Source: Acetivibrio sp. MSJd-27
Lineage (GTDB): Bacteria; Bacillota; Clostridia; UMGS1840; HGM11507
Direction of reading: 5' to 3'
DNA length: 64,000 nucleotides
Assembly (NCBI RefSeq): GCF_018918095.1
Contig: NZ_JAHLPV010000001.1
Coordinates: 62,001-126,000, forward strand
Part shown: in pieces, positions 1 through 59,656 of the stretch
How positions within the stretch are numbered: the stretch's first letter is position 1
Layout: every line of letters starts with the position of its first letter
The notes under the pieces: model-generated
What the model saw: only the letters and a program-made list of their open reading frames with translations
Databases searched by the model: none
What the model was told of the DNA's origin: nothing
Program-made: the position numbers and the translations under genes

Positions 1-71
1 CTCCCGATGATTGCGGCACTGCATAGCAGTGCCCTTGTCCTCGTTGAATGACGGGACAAGCCCTTATTGAA
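1..71 (-). repeat. R2 multi-hairpin repeat, copy a (cut by window edge)
   Basis: Read on the minus strand, this begins TTCAATAAGGGC and continues through the TTGTCC/GGACAA hairpin and the ACTGC/GCAGT hairpin into the first arm of the long stem, where the window ends. It matches the copies at 3345, 5122 and 59513. The TAA within its first bases serves as the stop codon of the broken metallophosphoesterase gene. Confidence 0.8.
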
Positions 72-1162
72 CAACAATTTCTCCGCGGTTGAATATCCTG
101 GGCACCGAAACCGCATTTCCGATTCCCCGGCTGACAAGATAAGTATGTCCATTCACCTCATATCTGCCGCCGCTGTACTTTGGGAACCAATCTCCATGAG
201 GGGATTTGAGCCCGCCTAAAAAAGGAATTCTAATCTGACCTCCATGCATATGTCCTGACAGAACAAGATCAAAAGTTTCGCCGTTAAATAGATCAAGCAT
301 ATTGGCTCTGTGAAACAGAAGGATTTGATAGCCGTCTATGCGTTCTTGTTTCTGCAGAGCCTTCTTTACATAGGTCTCCGCCTCGTCGTTTTCCCATGTA
401 TCCGGATCCCCGATTCCATACACAGAAATGGATTGTCCTCCCCGCTGAATCACTGCACTTTTCCCATCCAGAAAGGTAACCGGGTAATCCCGCTCCCATT
501 TTTCTCTCAGTTCATCAAATCTTCCCGACCATTTATCATGATTGCCGGATACCGCATAAACCGCTTCCGGCAGTTCGCAGTTCTTAAGCATTAGAGAGTC
601 GAACACAACATGGTTTACACAGGCAAATTTTCCGCAATCCTGCGTCAAAATGCTCGTCAATCCGTCAGGATTATCTGCGCTTTTTCCTTGTCTTACGAAA
701 AAATTTGCTCTGTGGAAACTCTGCGACCCTGCACATAGGAAAATTTTCGTTTTTTTGGTGCGTAAGGGTGCAGCAAGGCTGACGCCTTGCAAGACCGACA
801 ATCCGAAAAGGCGGAAATTTAACATGTGCATGGCATATTGGGTTCGAGTCCCTAATGCTTAAACAGATTTTCGATCGTCTCTATGCTTCCGGGAACTCCC
901 ATGTCAATCAAATCGCCTGCAAAAACGACCATATCAGCCTGCTGCTGTTCGATCTTGTCTATCATCATCTGATTTTTTCATCGAATTCAGAGCCTTGAAT
1001 ATCAGCCAAAAGTACGATCTTGTACCCATCAAAAGCAGAGGGAATCTTTGCATTTTCAACCGTATAGTTTGTAACTCCCAGCGTGTAATTATCCCAGTAC
1101 AGATAATAACAGCCGCCTATTGCCAACGAAAGAAAGAGCAAAAGGCATCGTATCTTTTTCAT
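64..1162 (-). pseudogene. Metallophosphoesterase (calcineurin-like), broken by MITE insertion and frameshift
   Basis: The gene starts at ATG 1162 behind an AAGAGGTG site, with an N-terminal membrane or lipoprotein signal (LAIGGC) and the first metal motif as LLADIQGSEF. The frame then stops at about 965. It resumes one frame over as MMIDKIEQQQADMVVFAGDLID (GDxxD motif), reaches the MITE at 859-587, and continues at 585-64 with SGNHD, the H of LLFHRAN, and SGHMHGGQ. Removing the MITE plus one TA joins LFK directly to NCELPEAVYAV in frame. Adding one A to the run at 973-978 restores the upstream frame. It resembles membrane-associated YkuE-type phosphoesterases by family knowledge. It is the last gene of the DUF5131-SfsA operon, 11 bp after its neighbour. 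As sequenced it cannot make the full protein. Confidence 0.85.
587..859 (-). mobile_element. TA-flanked MITE, copy A (inside metallophosphoesterase)
   Basis: The 273-bp element has terminal inverted repeats AGCATTAGAGAGTCGAA and AGCATTAGGGACTCGAA, flanked by TA at 585-586 and 860-861. It matches the copies at 45348 and 47056 in reverse orientation. TA duplication and AGC-ended TIRs fit elements mobilised by an IS630/Tc1-mariner transposase (inference). It encodes no transposase. It supplies an ATG and about 80 codons that run into the phosphoesterase remnant; I treat that chimeric frame as accidental. Confidence 0.85.
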
Positions 1163-3344: not shown

Positions 3345-3445
3345 TTCAATAAGGGCTTGTCCCGTCATTCAACGAGGACAAGAACACTGCTTGGCAATGC
3401 CGCAGTCAGCAGGAGATTGCACTCCCGCTGACTGCGGATATGGAA
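3345..3445 (+). repeat. R2 multi-hairpin repeat, copy c
   Basis: Begins TTCAATAAGGGCTTGTCC and ends GCGGATATGG. The long stem is CCGCAGTCAGCAGGAG against CTCCCGCTGACTGCGG with one A-C mismatch, so it differs from copies b and d at paired positions. This copy lacks the right-end CCGCCTTAAGAGGCGG hairpin. It fills the space between the divergent DUF5131 and RACo genes. Confidence 0.8.
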
Positions 3446-5121: not shown

Positions 5122-5265
5122 TTCAATAAGGGCTTGTCCCGTCATTCAACGAGGACAAGGGTACTGCATAGCAGTGCCGCAATCATCGGGAGATTGTACT
5201 CCCGATGATTGCGGATATGGAACCCGCCGCCTTAAGAGGCGGGGGACATCTTGCCCGCAGTTATA
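5122..5265 (+). repeat. R2 multi-hairpin repeat, copy b (full length)
   Basis: 144 bp from TTCAATAAGGGC to CCCGCAGTTATA. Four stem-loops: TTGTCC/GGACAA; ACTGC-ATA-GCAGT; a 16-bp stem CCGCAATCATCGGGAG/CTCCCGATGATTGCGG; and CCGCCT-TAAG-AGGCGG followed by GGGACATCTTGC. Near identical to copy d at 59513. The rest of this gap (5266-5423) holds further GC-rich inverted segments but no gene. Confidence 0.85.
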
Positions 5266-5423
5266 ACCTCGCTAAGAGAACCCCGTTTCCTTTAAACGGA
5301 GGGTATCGTATTATTGAAGCAAGCGGGCGGGCATATATCCTCCGCTTCGCGAGGTTGAAACGCCTGCAAGGCGGATTTTGCAGCAAAATGCTACAAAAGT
5401 GATTTCATCTTGTTATAAAAAAT

Positions 5424-19266: not shown

Positions 19267-19346
19267 ATGAAAAACTGCGCGTCTGCTGTTTTTTGAAACA
19301 TGCAATTGCCCACGATTCCGCGCAATTTCCTATGTTATAAAAAAAG
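19267..19346 (+). repeat. R3 degenerate hairpin repeat, copy a
   Basis: Contains GCTGTTTTTTGAAACATGCA and an AATTGC...GCGCAATT hairpin, ending TTTCCTATGTTATAA. It matches 23066-22965 (minus) closely and 47978 and 62667 more weakly. Confidence 0.65.
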
Positions 19347-22964: not shown

Positions 22965-23066
22965 CTTTTTTATAACATAGGAAATTGCGCGAAATCGTGC
23001 GCAATTGCATGTTTCAAAAAACAGCGTGCGAAGCGCGGCTGCGTTTTTCAGAATGAAAAACTTTTT
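22965..23066 (-). repeat. R3 degenerate hairpin repeat, copy b (best preserved)
   Basis: Minus strand: GTTTTTCATTCTGAAAAAC hairpin, a CAGC/GCTG stem, TTGAAACATGCA, then the perfect hairpin AATTGCGC-ACGATTTC-GCGCAATT and TTTCCTATGTTATAA. Confidence 0.65.
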
Positions 23067-27781: not shown

Positions 27782-27884
27782 GTTTGTCTATTTCGCATTG
27801 ATTTTACAGATAGAAACAGTTCATATAAGGATAAGAACGGCATTGTCTTCAAACCGTGATTTTAACGGAAGGAGTGTTCGCATT

Positions 27885-29105
27885 ATGCGCAGATCATCCC
27901 TATCTTTTCTTTTGATTGTCACACTGGTTACATCTTGCCTATCCCTCTCCGGCTGCGGAAAGGTAGATAGGGAATACCGGGCTTTTTATAACAGCCTTGT
28001 CAATAAAGACGGAAATTTCCGTTTTCGGGGAATGGAGCCTGGAACCAGTCAGAAGGATATCATTCAAATGGAGGGCATCGACGGGATAGAAGGCGAGGAT
28101 ATCACCTCCAAAGACAGCACTGGTCTTTTTCGCTGTCTCGTTCCGGTACAGTTCCCCTGCTTTTCTTTTGATCTGTATCGGGATTACAAAACGGCAACTC
28201 ATATCCCCTCACGGGACGGCGGAAGATTGGACGGATTTTTGACAAGCGGCAGCTACCTTGCCTTTTTTGAACAGGAAGAGGATTTCACGGCGGCATGCCG
28301 GCAGATTTCCGCCTTTCTGAAAGAGCATTTTCCAACGGGAACTTCCTTTGAAGGGCTGGATCAAATCCCGGAGCCGGAGCAGCGGATCCTCTCTCCTCAA
28401 TGGCAGACGGAGGCGGAGGACGGCAGCCGGCTTCTGGTCACCTTTCAAAACAGGGTTTCGCCGATAAATCCCAACCGTGCTCCTGCTTTCTGCTCCATTC
28501 GGATAGAGGTTTCCTATCAAAACCTCGCAGAGTCATCGATGGAAGACTATCAGGAATTTTATCAGGCTTTAAGCAATCGGGAGGGTAATTTCCGTTTCCG
28601 TGGAACAGAACCGGGACAGACCTATGAAGAACTGATCGCTTCCTTTGAAAAAGAGGGGTATGGAAAAGATGTGCTTACCCCCTTCGATCTTTTTGTCAGC
28701 TGCACCGTTCCGGACAGCTTCCCTTGCTTTGACTTTTCTCTATATAAAAGATATCATATGGATGAATCTTCCAACTCCATAAATGGTAAAACAGATTGGA
28801 CGACGAAGGATTCTTTGACGGGAGGATCGTATCTTTCCAGTTTCTATCGGGAAGAGGACTGGATTGCGGCATGCCGGCAGATCATTACCTTTCTGAAAGC
28901 AAAATTTCCGGGAGGAGTTTCCTTCGAAGAATTGGAACACACACCGGATCCTGAAAAATTAATGTCTCCGCAATGGGAAATAGAAGGAGCCGATGGAAGC
29001 AAGATTAGCGTTACCTTTCAAAATAAAAATATGGATCATCCTCTGAATAAAGCGCCGTCCACATGCTCTATCATGATCACAGTATATTACCGTAATATGA
29101 ATTAA
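27885..29105 (+). CDS. Two-domain lipoprotein of a locally duplicated family, copy 1
   Basis: 406 residues. The lipobox is LSLSGC, Cys24. Two copies of a domain of about 190 residues follow, each starting YRAFYNSLVNKDGNFRFRG or YQEFYQALSNREGNFRFRG and containing FPCFxFxLY, GSYL, an EEDxxAACRQIxxFLK helix, PQW and DGS...VTFQN. ATG 27885 follows GGAAGGAG; the open frame upstream from 27705 is an accident of the duplicated leader. Extracellular, function unknown. Flanked by its own terminators. Confidence 0.8.
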   Translation: MRRSSLSFLLIVTLVTSCLSLSGCGKVDREYRAFYNSLVNKDGNFRFRGMEPGTSQKDIIQMEGIDGIEGEDITSKDSTGLFRCLVPVQFPCFSFDLYRDYKTATHIPSRDGGRLDGFLTSGSYLAFFEQEEDFTAACRQISAFLKEHFPTGTSFEGLDQIPEPEQRILSPQWQTEAEDGSRLLVTFQNRVSPINPNRAPAFCSIRIEVSYQNLAESSMEDYQEFYQALSNREGNFRFRGTEPGQTYEELIASFEKEGYGKDVLTPFDLFVSCTVPDSFPCFDFSLYKRYHMDESSNSINGKTDWTTKDSLTGGSYLSSFYREEDWIAACRQIITFLKAKFPGGVSFEELEHTPDPEKLMSPQWEIEGADGSKISVTFQNKNMDHPLNKAPSTCSIMITVYYRNMN

Positions 29106-29110
29106 CGGCT

Positions 29111-29155
29111 TACAGCGTACTATGAAGCGAAAATTTCATAGTGCGCTGTACTTTT
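29111..29155 (+). terminator. Terminator between the two lipoprotein copies
   Basis: TACAGCG-TACTATGAA pairs with TTTCATAGTG-CGCTGTA, then CTTTT. Confidence 0.75.
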
Positions 29156-29244
29156 CATTGACTTTACAGATAGAAACAGTTCATATAAGGATAAGAACGG
29201 CATTGTCTTCAAACCGTGATTTTAACGGAAGGAGTGTTCGCATT

Positions 29245-30474
29245 ATGCGCAGAGCATCCCTATCTTTTCTTTTGATTGTCACATTGCTTTTCTCCTGCCT
29301 TTCCCTCTCGGGATGCGGAAAGGTGGACGGGGAATACCGGGCTTTTTATGACAGCCTTGTGAATAAAGACGGAAATTTCCGTTTTCGGGGCACGAATCCG
29401 GGGGACAGCCAGGACAGCATTTTTCAGGCAGAAGGGCTCAGCGGCACGATAGATGAGGATGTCAGTATTATGGACAGCACCGGCCTTTTCTACTGTTACC
29501 AGCCGGTACAGTTCCCCTGCTTTTCGTTCGATCTGTATCGGGATTACCGGACGCCGCTTCATACGCCTTCCACTGTAGATGATTTTAGATATAACAGTTC
29601 CATGACAAGCGGAAGCTATACCGCCTTTTTTGAACAGCAGGAGGAGTTTACGGCGGCGTGCGGACAAATCACTGCCTTTCTGAAAGAGCATTTTCCAAAG
29701 GGAACTTCCTTTGAAGCCCTGGAGCAAATCCCGGAACCGAAACAATTCATCTCCGCCCCCCAATGGCAGGCGGAGGCAAGGGACGGCAGCCAGCTTCTGG
29801 TCACCTTTCAGAATAAAATTTCTCCTCAGTCGAATAACAAAAAGCATATGGTATCCCAGATTCCTCCCTGCGGTTTTATCCGGCTGGAGGTTTCCTACCG
29901 CAAGCTTACGGAATCTTTCACAAAAGATTACCAGGAATTTTATCAGGCTCTGGTTAACTCGGAGGGCAATTTCCGCTTCTGCGGTACCGAATCGGGACAA
30001 ACCTATGAGGCGCTGGCCGCCTCTTTTGAAGAAAAGGGATACGGGAGAGACGCTCTTGCCCCCTTTAGCGATATGTTTCGCAGCAAAATTCTTGACATTT
30101 TCCCCTGTTTTCCTTTTTTCTTCTCCGAAAATTACTGGATGGATACCTCCGTCAACCTGGAAAACGGCAAAGCGAAATCACAGACGGAGGATTCTCTGTC
30201 CGGCGGATGGTACACCAGCTTTTTCTATCGCGAGGAGGACTGGGCGGAAGCATGCGGGCAAATAACCGATTTTTTGAAAGTAATGTTTCCGGAAAGGGGA
30301 TCCTTTGAAACTCTGTATCATCTTCCCGAAACGGAAGAATGGAATGAGGAATGGCGGGTGGAAGCCCCCGATGGAAGTCAGCTTTCCGTCGATTTTCAAA
30401 ATAAGGAACGGTATTATCATCCTTATTTGAACTTTATAGAAAGTTCCCGGATTCAAATCACGGTGTTCAATTGA
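29245..30474 (+). CDS. Two-domain lipoprotein of a locally duplicated family, copy 2
   Basis: 409 residues, parallel to the preceding gene: MRRASLSFLLIVTLLFSCLS with lipobox LSLSGC, first domain YRAFYDSLVNKDGNFRFRG, second domain YQEFYQALVNSEGNFRFCG. The second domain has lost the final RG pair. The roughly 85 bp upstream are nearly identical to those before copy 1. ATG 29245 follows GGAAGGAG. Duplicated with its leader, then diverged. Confidence 0.8.
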   Translation: MRRASLSFLLIVTLLFSCLSLSGCGKVDGEYRAFYDSLVNKDGNFRFRGTNPGDSQDSIFQAEGLSGTIDEDVSIMDSTGLFYCYQPVQFPCFSFDLYRDYRTPLHTPSTVDDFRYNSSMTSGSYTAFFEQQEEFTAACGQITAFLKEHFPKGTSFEALEQIPEPKQFISAPQWQAEARDGSQLLVTFQNKISPQSNNKKHMVSQIPPCGFIRLEVSYRKLTESFTKDYQEFYQALVNSEGNFRFCGTESGQTYEALAASFEEKGYGRDALAPFSDMFRSKILDIFPCFPFFFSENYWMDTSVNLENGKAKSQTEDSLSGGWYTSFFYREEDWAEACGQITDFLKVMFPERGSFETLYHLPETEEWNEEWRVEAPDGSQLSVDFQNKERYYHPYLNFIESSRIQITVFN

Positions 30475-45333: not shown

Positions 45334-45347
45334 AAACCTTTTCCATA

Positions 45348-45611
45348 AGCATTAGGGAGTTGAACCCCATATGCCCTGCACATGTTAAATTTCCGCCTTT
45401 TCGGATTGTCAGCCTTGCTGCACCCTTACGCACCAAAAAAACGAATTGATCGAAAGATTCCTATGTGCAGGGTCGCAGAGTTTCCACGGAGCAAATTTTT
45501 TGTAAGACAAGGAAAAAGCGCAGATCATCCTGACGGATTGACGAGCATTTTGACGCAGGATTGCGGAAAATTTGCCTGTGGAAACCATATTGTGTTCGAC
45601 TCTCTAATGCT
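45348..45611 (+). mobile_element. TA-flanked MITE, copy B
   Basis: 264 bp, ends AGCATTAGGGAGTTGAACC and AGCATTAGAGAGTCGAAC (minus), TA at 45346-45347 and 45612-45613. Same orientation as copy C. Inserted just after the EndoQ-helicase gene, so it may carry that transcript's 3' end. Confidence 0.85.
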
Positions 45612-45734
45612 TAACAACGCTGCAAAAAATAATCTTAAAAATAATTTTTTGAAATACAGTTCATCATAATTTTTTCGAAACTGGAAATCCTATCAGAGAT
45701 ATTGAAATATTTTTCGGACAAGGAGGATTTTCAG

Positions 45735-46766: not shown

Positions 46767-47055
46767 TGGACACCTCCTTTCCCTGTCGTTCTCCTCCGCA
46801 TCCGTGAATCGATATTTTTTGGCACTTCCATTTTTTAGTTTTTTCAATTACATCGAACGCTGGAATCTGCATATTGTTTTCACAATTCTCCGCACACATA
46901 TCGGGGTTTAAAGATGAATAAAGTATGAGATAAAACCTTTTACTCTTCTGACAAAAACAGCTTCGAAAGAATAAGCACCGTATCGAATCCATTTTATTCC
47001 ATGGATTCGCCGATATAATCGCAAATACGCTGTTCGTTATTTTTTGAGACAATTA
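46767..47055. other. Intergenic stretch, nothing clear
   Basis: About 290 bp between the small acidic gene and MITE copy C. I see no gene, strong hairpin or consensus promoter; a TATAAT occurs near 47008 without a good -35. Confidence 0.5.
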
Positions 47056-47327
47056 AGCATTAGGGAGTCAAACCCCATATGCCCTGCACTTGTTAAATTT
47101 CCGCCTTTTCGGATTGTCGGTCTTGTAAGGCGTCAGCCTTGCTGCACCCTTACGCACCAAAAAACGAAAATTTGCCTATGTGCAGGGTCGCAGAGTTTCC
47201 ACAGAGCAAATTTTTTCGTAAAACAAGGAAAAAGCGCAGATAATCCTGACGGATTGACGAGCATTTTGACGCAGGATTGCGCAAAATTTTCCTGTGGAAA
47301 CTATATTGGATTCGACGCCCTAATGCT
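47056..47327 (+). mobile_element. TA-flanked MITE, copy C
   Basis: 272 bp, ends AGCATTAGGGAGTCAAACC and AGCATTAGGGCGTCGAATCC (minus), TA at 47054-47055 and 47328-47329. Most of the interior is shared with copies A and B, including a TCGGATTGTC...GACG region and TTTCCACRGAGCAAATTTTT. Confidence 0.85.
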
Positions 47328-47534
47328 TAAGAGAAAATTCACTGTCTGACACGGATGACACCTTTATTTGATTCTATTATAAAATAGTTCCATACCATAT
47401 GCAAGGTTCCCGTTCCGTAGATTTCCGCCGCGCCTTTTCCATGATGGCATTGCCCTCAATGCAGCGATTCATTGGAAGAGATCACTTTTCCCAGATGAGT
47501 TCATATGATAATAACAGGAAAGGAGGTATTCCCC

Positions 47535-59512: not shown

Positions 59513-59656
59513 TATAACTGCGGGCAAGATGTCCCCCGCCTCTTAAGGCGGCGGGATTCATATCCGCGATCAGCGGGAGTGTAATCTCCCGCTGATCGCG
59601 GCACTGCTATGCAGTGCCCTTGTCCTCGTTGAATGACGGGACAAGCCCTTATTGAA
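59513..59656 (-). repeat. R2 multi-hairpin repeat, copy d (full length)
   Basis: Minus strand: TTCAATAAGGGCTTGTCC to CCCGCAGTTATA, 144 bp. The long stem is CCGCGATCAGCGGGAG/CTCCCGCTGATCGCGG, with two changed base pairs relative to copy b, both compensated. Ends in the CCGCCT-TAAG-AGGCGG hairpin and GGGACATCTTGC. Confidence 0.85.

Follow-up and report, generated by a model that had tools for sequence, protein, structure and literature searches.

A 64,000-nucleotide stretch of Acetivibrio sp. MSJd-27 (the window) carries several copies of a short multi-hairpin repeat, R2, whose long stem changes from copy to copy together with its opposite arm. A preliminary description of this DNA read such compensatory change among copies of one genome as implying either that structure is under selection or that mobility includes a folding step. 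The locus thus raises two questions: whether and how R2 moves, and what generates the paired changes in its stem.

R2 is a repeat of approximately 143 bp that contains four hairpins (H1 to H4) and no gene. All four copies reported in the window are present: a complete copy on the + strand at 5122..5260 (139 bp without the target), a complete copy on the - strand at 59518..59656 (target TTATA at 59513-59517), a right-truncated copy at 3345..3445 (+) that lacks H4 and the right end, and a copy at 1..71 (-) that is shortened by the window edge alone, the whole of it lying at G000:C1:61926-62071. The genome-wide total had been missed. A search of the host genome (G000; 3.05 Mb, 104 contigs) with the 21-base left end, allowing up to 3 mismatches, returned 61 matches, versus 0 for the reversed control; for the four window copies, the 18-base left end gave 4 matches versus 0.05 expected. 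We retrieved the surroundings of every copy for comparison, and paired copies mostly measured 142-144 bp, counted through TTAT. A second genome of the same class but another family (MAG E0_DP__bin142, contigs CALXWJ, matched by copies and positions; G018) holds 197 copies, as counted by left end.

On the given strand, R2 reads TTCAATAAGGGC, H1, H2, H3, ATATGGA, H4 and CATCTTGCCCGCAG, followed by TTATA. The left end, described as always TTCAATAAGGGC, is nearly so, although TTTAAT, TCCAAT and others also occur. On the opposite strand, which we term active, the order is TATAA/CTGCGGGC...H4...H3...H2...H1...CCCTTATTGAA/, where slashes mark element boundaries. In the complete copy, H1 (5133..5159, +) has a 7-bp stem with a single bulge (a T, read on the active strand) and a 3-bp inner stem, and is the hairpin of the putative right end; its bulge is retained in G018 copies that have a different loop. 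H2 (5160..5178, +) is an 8-bp hairpin whose loop is inverted at times, H3 (5179..5212, +) is a 14-bp palindrome with a 6-nt loop and is the covarying stem, and H4 (5223..5245, +) is a 9-bp hairpin around CTTAAG and belongs to the putative left end. The two subterminal hairpins are asymmetric, with H1 at 11 nt and H4 at about 16 nt from the ends. The whole folds far below shuffled sequences (z about -8). At L172 around 1089, on either strand, an H1 also stands alone, flanked on each side by sequence of the R2 left-end type (ACCAATAAGTGCTTGTCCCG...GGATAAGCCTTTATTGAA).

Comparison of flanks and empty sites revealed how R2 is inserted. After the terminal GCAG, all but two copies continue with TTAT, and then A (51/56) or T (5/56); on the active strand the target is TATAA in 51/56 and AATAA in 5/56. 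The flank logo showed no conserved base on the side away from the target. For the complete copy, the flank logo and the empty site place the target TTATA at 5261..5265 (+), outside the element. Joined flanks were then compared with the retrieved genome sequence. The copy at C51:7750 lies inside another repeat, whose uninterrupted version on C1 reads CCTATG/TTATAAAAAAG; filled and empty sites share 90% identity across 120 bp, with neither gain nor loss of a base. The cases at C4:1333 and C41:18137 are weaker but concordant. Neither flank comparison nor empty sites revealed a target duplication. Given these nested insertions with empty counterparts and the one-sided flank, R2 moves precisely next to a short one-sided target, and on the active strand insertion is 3' of TATAA. 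Mobility without terminal inverted repeats, as first proposed, is therefore supported by empty sites inside other repeats, and the ends TTCAATAAGG and GCAG indeed give no inverted match. The same nested insertions refute, as the main account, a reading of R2 as an immobile regulatory repeat, whether a transcription terminator or some other fixed element. Nearly all copies are intergenic, as such a repeat would be, but convergent genes are not preferred, and a terminator-like site nearby falls outside R2. No T-run follows H4 or the other hairpins, so the suggestion that simple terminators might account for the structure fails, and we regard a fixed regulatory role as extremely improbable.

The orientation of the copies bears on the mechanism. 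Replication direction was approximated by GC skew, which agreed with gene direction at 56/64 copies. The given strand was the G-rich strand in only 18/62 copies of G000 (p=0.0013) and 19/71 copies of G018 (p=0.0001). Because the G-rich strand corresponds in sense to the lagging-strand template, the putative active strand is biased toward that template, on which it lies in 71% of copies in G000 and 73% in G018. The target motif itself is balanced between the strands of intergenic DNA (424:404). IS200/IS605 elements favor the lagging-strand template (PMC5371812, PMC6006769), and replication-linked orientation bias is also known in other IS families (PMC5371812). An IS200/IS605-type mechanism predicts the bias seen here, which lends it support rather than proof, and selection near genes could contribute part of the effect.

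To search for an enzyme, we examined Y1 transposase genes. None with R2 ends was found in the genomes searched, in assemblies of a kind from which multicopy IS are often lost. The Y1 genes of G000 are partial only, lie at contig ends and come from two IS200-type elements; the ends of these elements differ from those of R2, and a link to them was rejected for that reason. (IS200-type elements lie directly after the T-runs of terminator-like hairpins (TTTTTTGTATCACGAAAACCACC) at L089-L093, at the ends of contigs C16, C30, C66, C7 and C42.) TnpB is absent from G000, and neither tnpA nor tnpB lies inside R2 or linked to it. Integron cassettes were rejected on reading the alignments, as the R2 copies do not conserve any attC-like core pair. 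G018 has two REP-type (RAYT-like) Y1 genes, each without flanking R2 and rejected as its mobilizer. These genes, the intergenic palindromic character of R2 and a REP inserted in H2 of some G018 copies are what could suggest that R2 is of REP/BIME type and is moved by a RAYT, the Y1 transposase associated with REPs. However, the hairpin foot carries no GTAG/GTGG tag, the REP in G018 has its own sequence, and RAYT has no match in G000, leaving this origin very unlikely.

Mobilization by a non-Y1 enzyme is somewhat less remote; examples would be an IS110-type recombinase guided by bridge RNA, or a tyrosine or serine recombinase that crosses over at TT. The junctions N/TT...G/TTATA are also compatible with a two-base TT crossover, and no matching Y1 gene was found in the genomes searched. 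However, the R2 target is conserved on one side only, unlike bridge-RNA targets, for which reason IS110-type guidance was rejected; and subterminal hairpins and lagging-strand bias are traits of Y1 elements. We therefore consider a non-Y1 enzyme doubtful. Anatomy, target and strand bias together point to an IS200/IS605-type mechanism.

We then asked what lies behind the covariation. The description of the stem variants in the window copies, with matching changes in the other arm at positions 5, 6 and 10, holds; an A.C mismatch at stem position 12 of the copy at 3345 had been overlooked. Paired columns were defined from single-copy folds, the RNAalifold consensus on the raw alignment being poor, and changes among 46 near-full copies of G000 were mapped on a tree. 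H3 showed 16 same-branch changes in paired columns versus 3.6 (sd 1.7) expected under a tree-aware null (p<=0.0005), 14 of the 16 being from one Watson-Crick pair to another, whereas sliding the stem left 0 to 4. When H3 columns were excluded from tree building, there were 27 coincident changes versus 10.7 (sd 2.5), the largest of 2000 null values being 20. No coincident change occurred in H1, H2 or H4 among the 46 copies, though all three mutate one-sidedly. The larger sample thus upholds dependence between arms for H3 and not for the remaining hairpins. In an alignment of 66 copies from G000 and G018, 91.3% of cells pair versus 87.3% when shuffled; both sides changed at 9/14 H3 pairs, and the covariation score was 0.186 versus 0.116 shuffled and at most 0.086 slid.

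The H3 loop is inverted (TGCAAT type, not ATTGCA type) in 6/46 copies, which by parsimony represent six separate events. Its arms are perfect in 6/6 loop-inverted copies versus 11/40 others (Fisher p=0.0013). The copy at C61:7047 carries GCGCTCAGCGGGAG ATTGCA CTCTCGCTGAACGC and that at C1:16912 carries GCGCTCAGCGGGAG TGCAAT CTCCCGCTGAGCGC; the two share an extra T in H4 and have 3 site differences outside H3. A second pair, nearest neighbors outside H3, consists of C4:58997, whose loop is ATTGTA and whose arms have two mismatches, and C72:3130, with a TACAAT loop and perfect arms. By sequence, both pairs look like the before and after of arm perfection with exact reverse complementation of the loop. 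In C1:18645, three H3 pairs changed at once. Published work identifies the combination of homogenized arms and an inverted loop as the footprint of template switching (PMC8794818, PMC8604942). Because the loop inversions, linked to perfect arms, match that footprint, we read covariation of H3 within the genome mainly as palindrome correction by template switching. Template switching yields "compensatory" changes in a single step and requires no selection, so the covariation need not imply selection. Of the two readings offered originally, mobility stands, while the step from covariation to selection does not: the effect is confined to one hairpin and consists mostly of single-step changes, with inverted loops and perfected arms.

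Selection on H3 is also possible, acting on a structure that works as RNA or folded single-stranded DNA (a transposition hairpin, a small RNA or an mRNA-stabilizing hairpin). Pairing of H3 is kept across genera despite sequence change, as the pairs altered on both sides illustrate, and the core stays paired in distant relatives, those in other clostridia retaining CAGNGGGAG...CTCCCNCTG; template switching alone need not explain such persistence. However, 29/46 copies have arm mismatches or wobbles in H3, coincident changes are lacking in the other three hairpins, and selection on a stem does not predict a tie between covariation and loop inversion. For a role as RNA in particular, R2 has no Rfam match above the gathering score, and the sole nearby promoter-like site, directed outward from the left end, falls in the range of shuffled sequences. 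We consider selection the less likely source of the covariation, though it is the most serious of the competing explanations.

To examine distribution, a covariance model was built from the R2 copies of G000 and G018. It matched 27/291 genomes of the class at E<=0.01, and a few genomes outside the class at E<=0.0001. The relatives found in this way have in common H3, ATGGAACCCGCC, H4 and an end at TTATA, and their left parts are variable; one lies in a 94-kb viral contig. The MAG CAJFNT contains one diverged R2 copy. R2 was absent from plasmid and phage records, and neither its left nor its right end matched viral contigs. Of 17 genomes carrying relatives, 7 had no Y1 match, and none had a Y1 gene with R2-like flanking ends. 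R2 might belong to a wide superfamily of gene-less structured transposons in Clostridia, recognizable by the conserved central hairpin, H4 and a TTATA-adjacent end. Such a superfamily would be moved by an enzyme so far unconnected with elements of this kind, several carrier genomes showing no Y1 gene, and H3 would be active in the process. We hold this broader proposal to be speculative and unlikely.

Several other repeats touch R2 or its site. A second short repeat (TTAAGCATTAG...; window 580-862, 45346-45618 and 47053-47332; G000 C4:14596, C7:20150 and C2:68783) sits at the CTTAAG center of H4 in three R2 copies, much like the SMR repeats of Haloquadratum, which have PATE palindromes as their targets. 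Many G018 copies have a REP palindrome (GGCGATTCGTGAATCGCC) at one and the same H2 position (L161, L163, L164, L168, L173, L174, L184, L188 and L193); it seems that either a chimeric R2 was amplified or H2 was hit repeatedly. One repeat family has a TTATAA site (TTTCCTATGTTATAAAAAA; window 19285-19344 and 22966-23025; G000 C1 near 132150) at which R2 can insert, and another repeat ends in CATCTTGTTATAA (window 5266-5420; L256, L259), an end resembling elements of genomes G087 and G239. The TTATAA end is common to several repeat families here, hinting at one mobilizer. The window also contains a tandem duplication of about 1.36 kb (27789-30065; 71-84% identity) that covers two ORFs.

Together, these observations make it probable, in our judgment, that R2 is a non-autonomous element resembling the palindrome-associated transposable elements (PATEs), mobilized by a Y1 HUH enzyme, with H3 covariation arising by template switching. 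A transposase supplied in trans, with a Y1 HUH enzyme of IS200/IS605 type as the likeliest candidate, would bind H4 and H1 on the single-stranded lagging-strand template; R2 would be excised and then reinserted 3' of TATAA, leaving the target unduplicated. The hairpins are probably essential to this mobility. During the same single-stranded phases the H3 palindrome would fold, and the replication fork would now and then copy one arm from the other. Such copying would perfect the arms and sometimes invert the loop, so that both sides of the stem are altered in one event.

Among known systems, R2 shares four structural features with the PATEs of Haloquadratum walsbyi (PMC3119063): it lacks terminal inverted repeats, does not duplicate its target, has palindromes near both ends and, at about 139 bp, is too short for a gene. 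Further resemblances are a short, one-sided target, a longer spacing at the target end and the invasion of a near-terminal palindrome by other small repeats. Unlike PATEs, R2 is bacterial (Clostridia) and has four hairpins, the long central one being among the best conserved parts across genera, and no related IS605-type element was found in the genomes searched, from whose assemblies multicopy IS may be missing. In Haloquadratum, strain-specific insertions were seen despite broken resident IS200-type transposases (PMC3119063), and R2 likewise raises the question of what moves elements in genomes without an obvious transposase. It adds to the Bacillota a wide, apparently undescribed PATE-like family. 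Like the IS200/IS605 elements IS608 and ISDra2, R2 inserts 3' of a short target without duplication, has a lagging-strand orientation and carries subterminal hairpins, of which H1 has a single T bulging from its stem on the active strand; unlike them, it has no tnpA or tnpB inside or linked, and the IS608 hairpins are alike (PMC7290912), whereas H1 and H4 differ from each other. Because neither an IS605-type parent nor a linked Y1 transposase came to light in the genomes searched, we describe R2 as working like an IS200/IS605-type element but do not file it in that family. REP/BIME and RAYT systems are also high-copy intergenic palindromes, but R2 lacks the GTAG-type tag, is larger with four different hairpins and is unlinked to RAYT genes. 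Finally, template-switch (quasipalindrome) mutations match H3 in their homogenized arms, inverted loop and several compensatory changes made together (PMC8794818, PMC8604942), whereas the H3 events occur among mobile-element copies of one genome, with before and after relatives. Where the copies of a repeat covary, a functional RNA is often considered proven; R2 illustrates that strong stem covariation can arise by template switching, and offers both a warning and a natural test bed.
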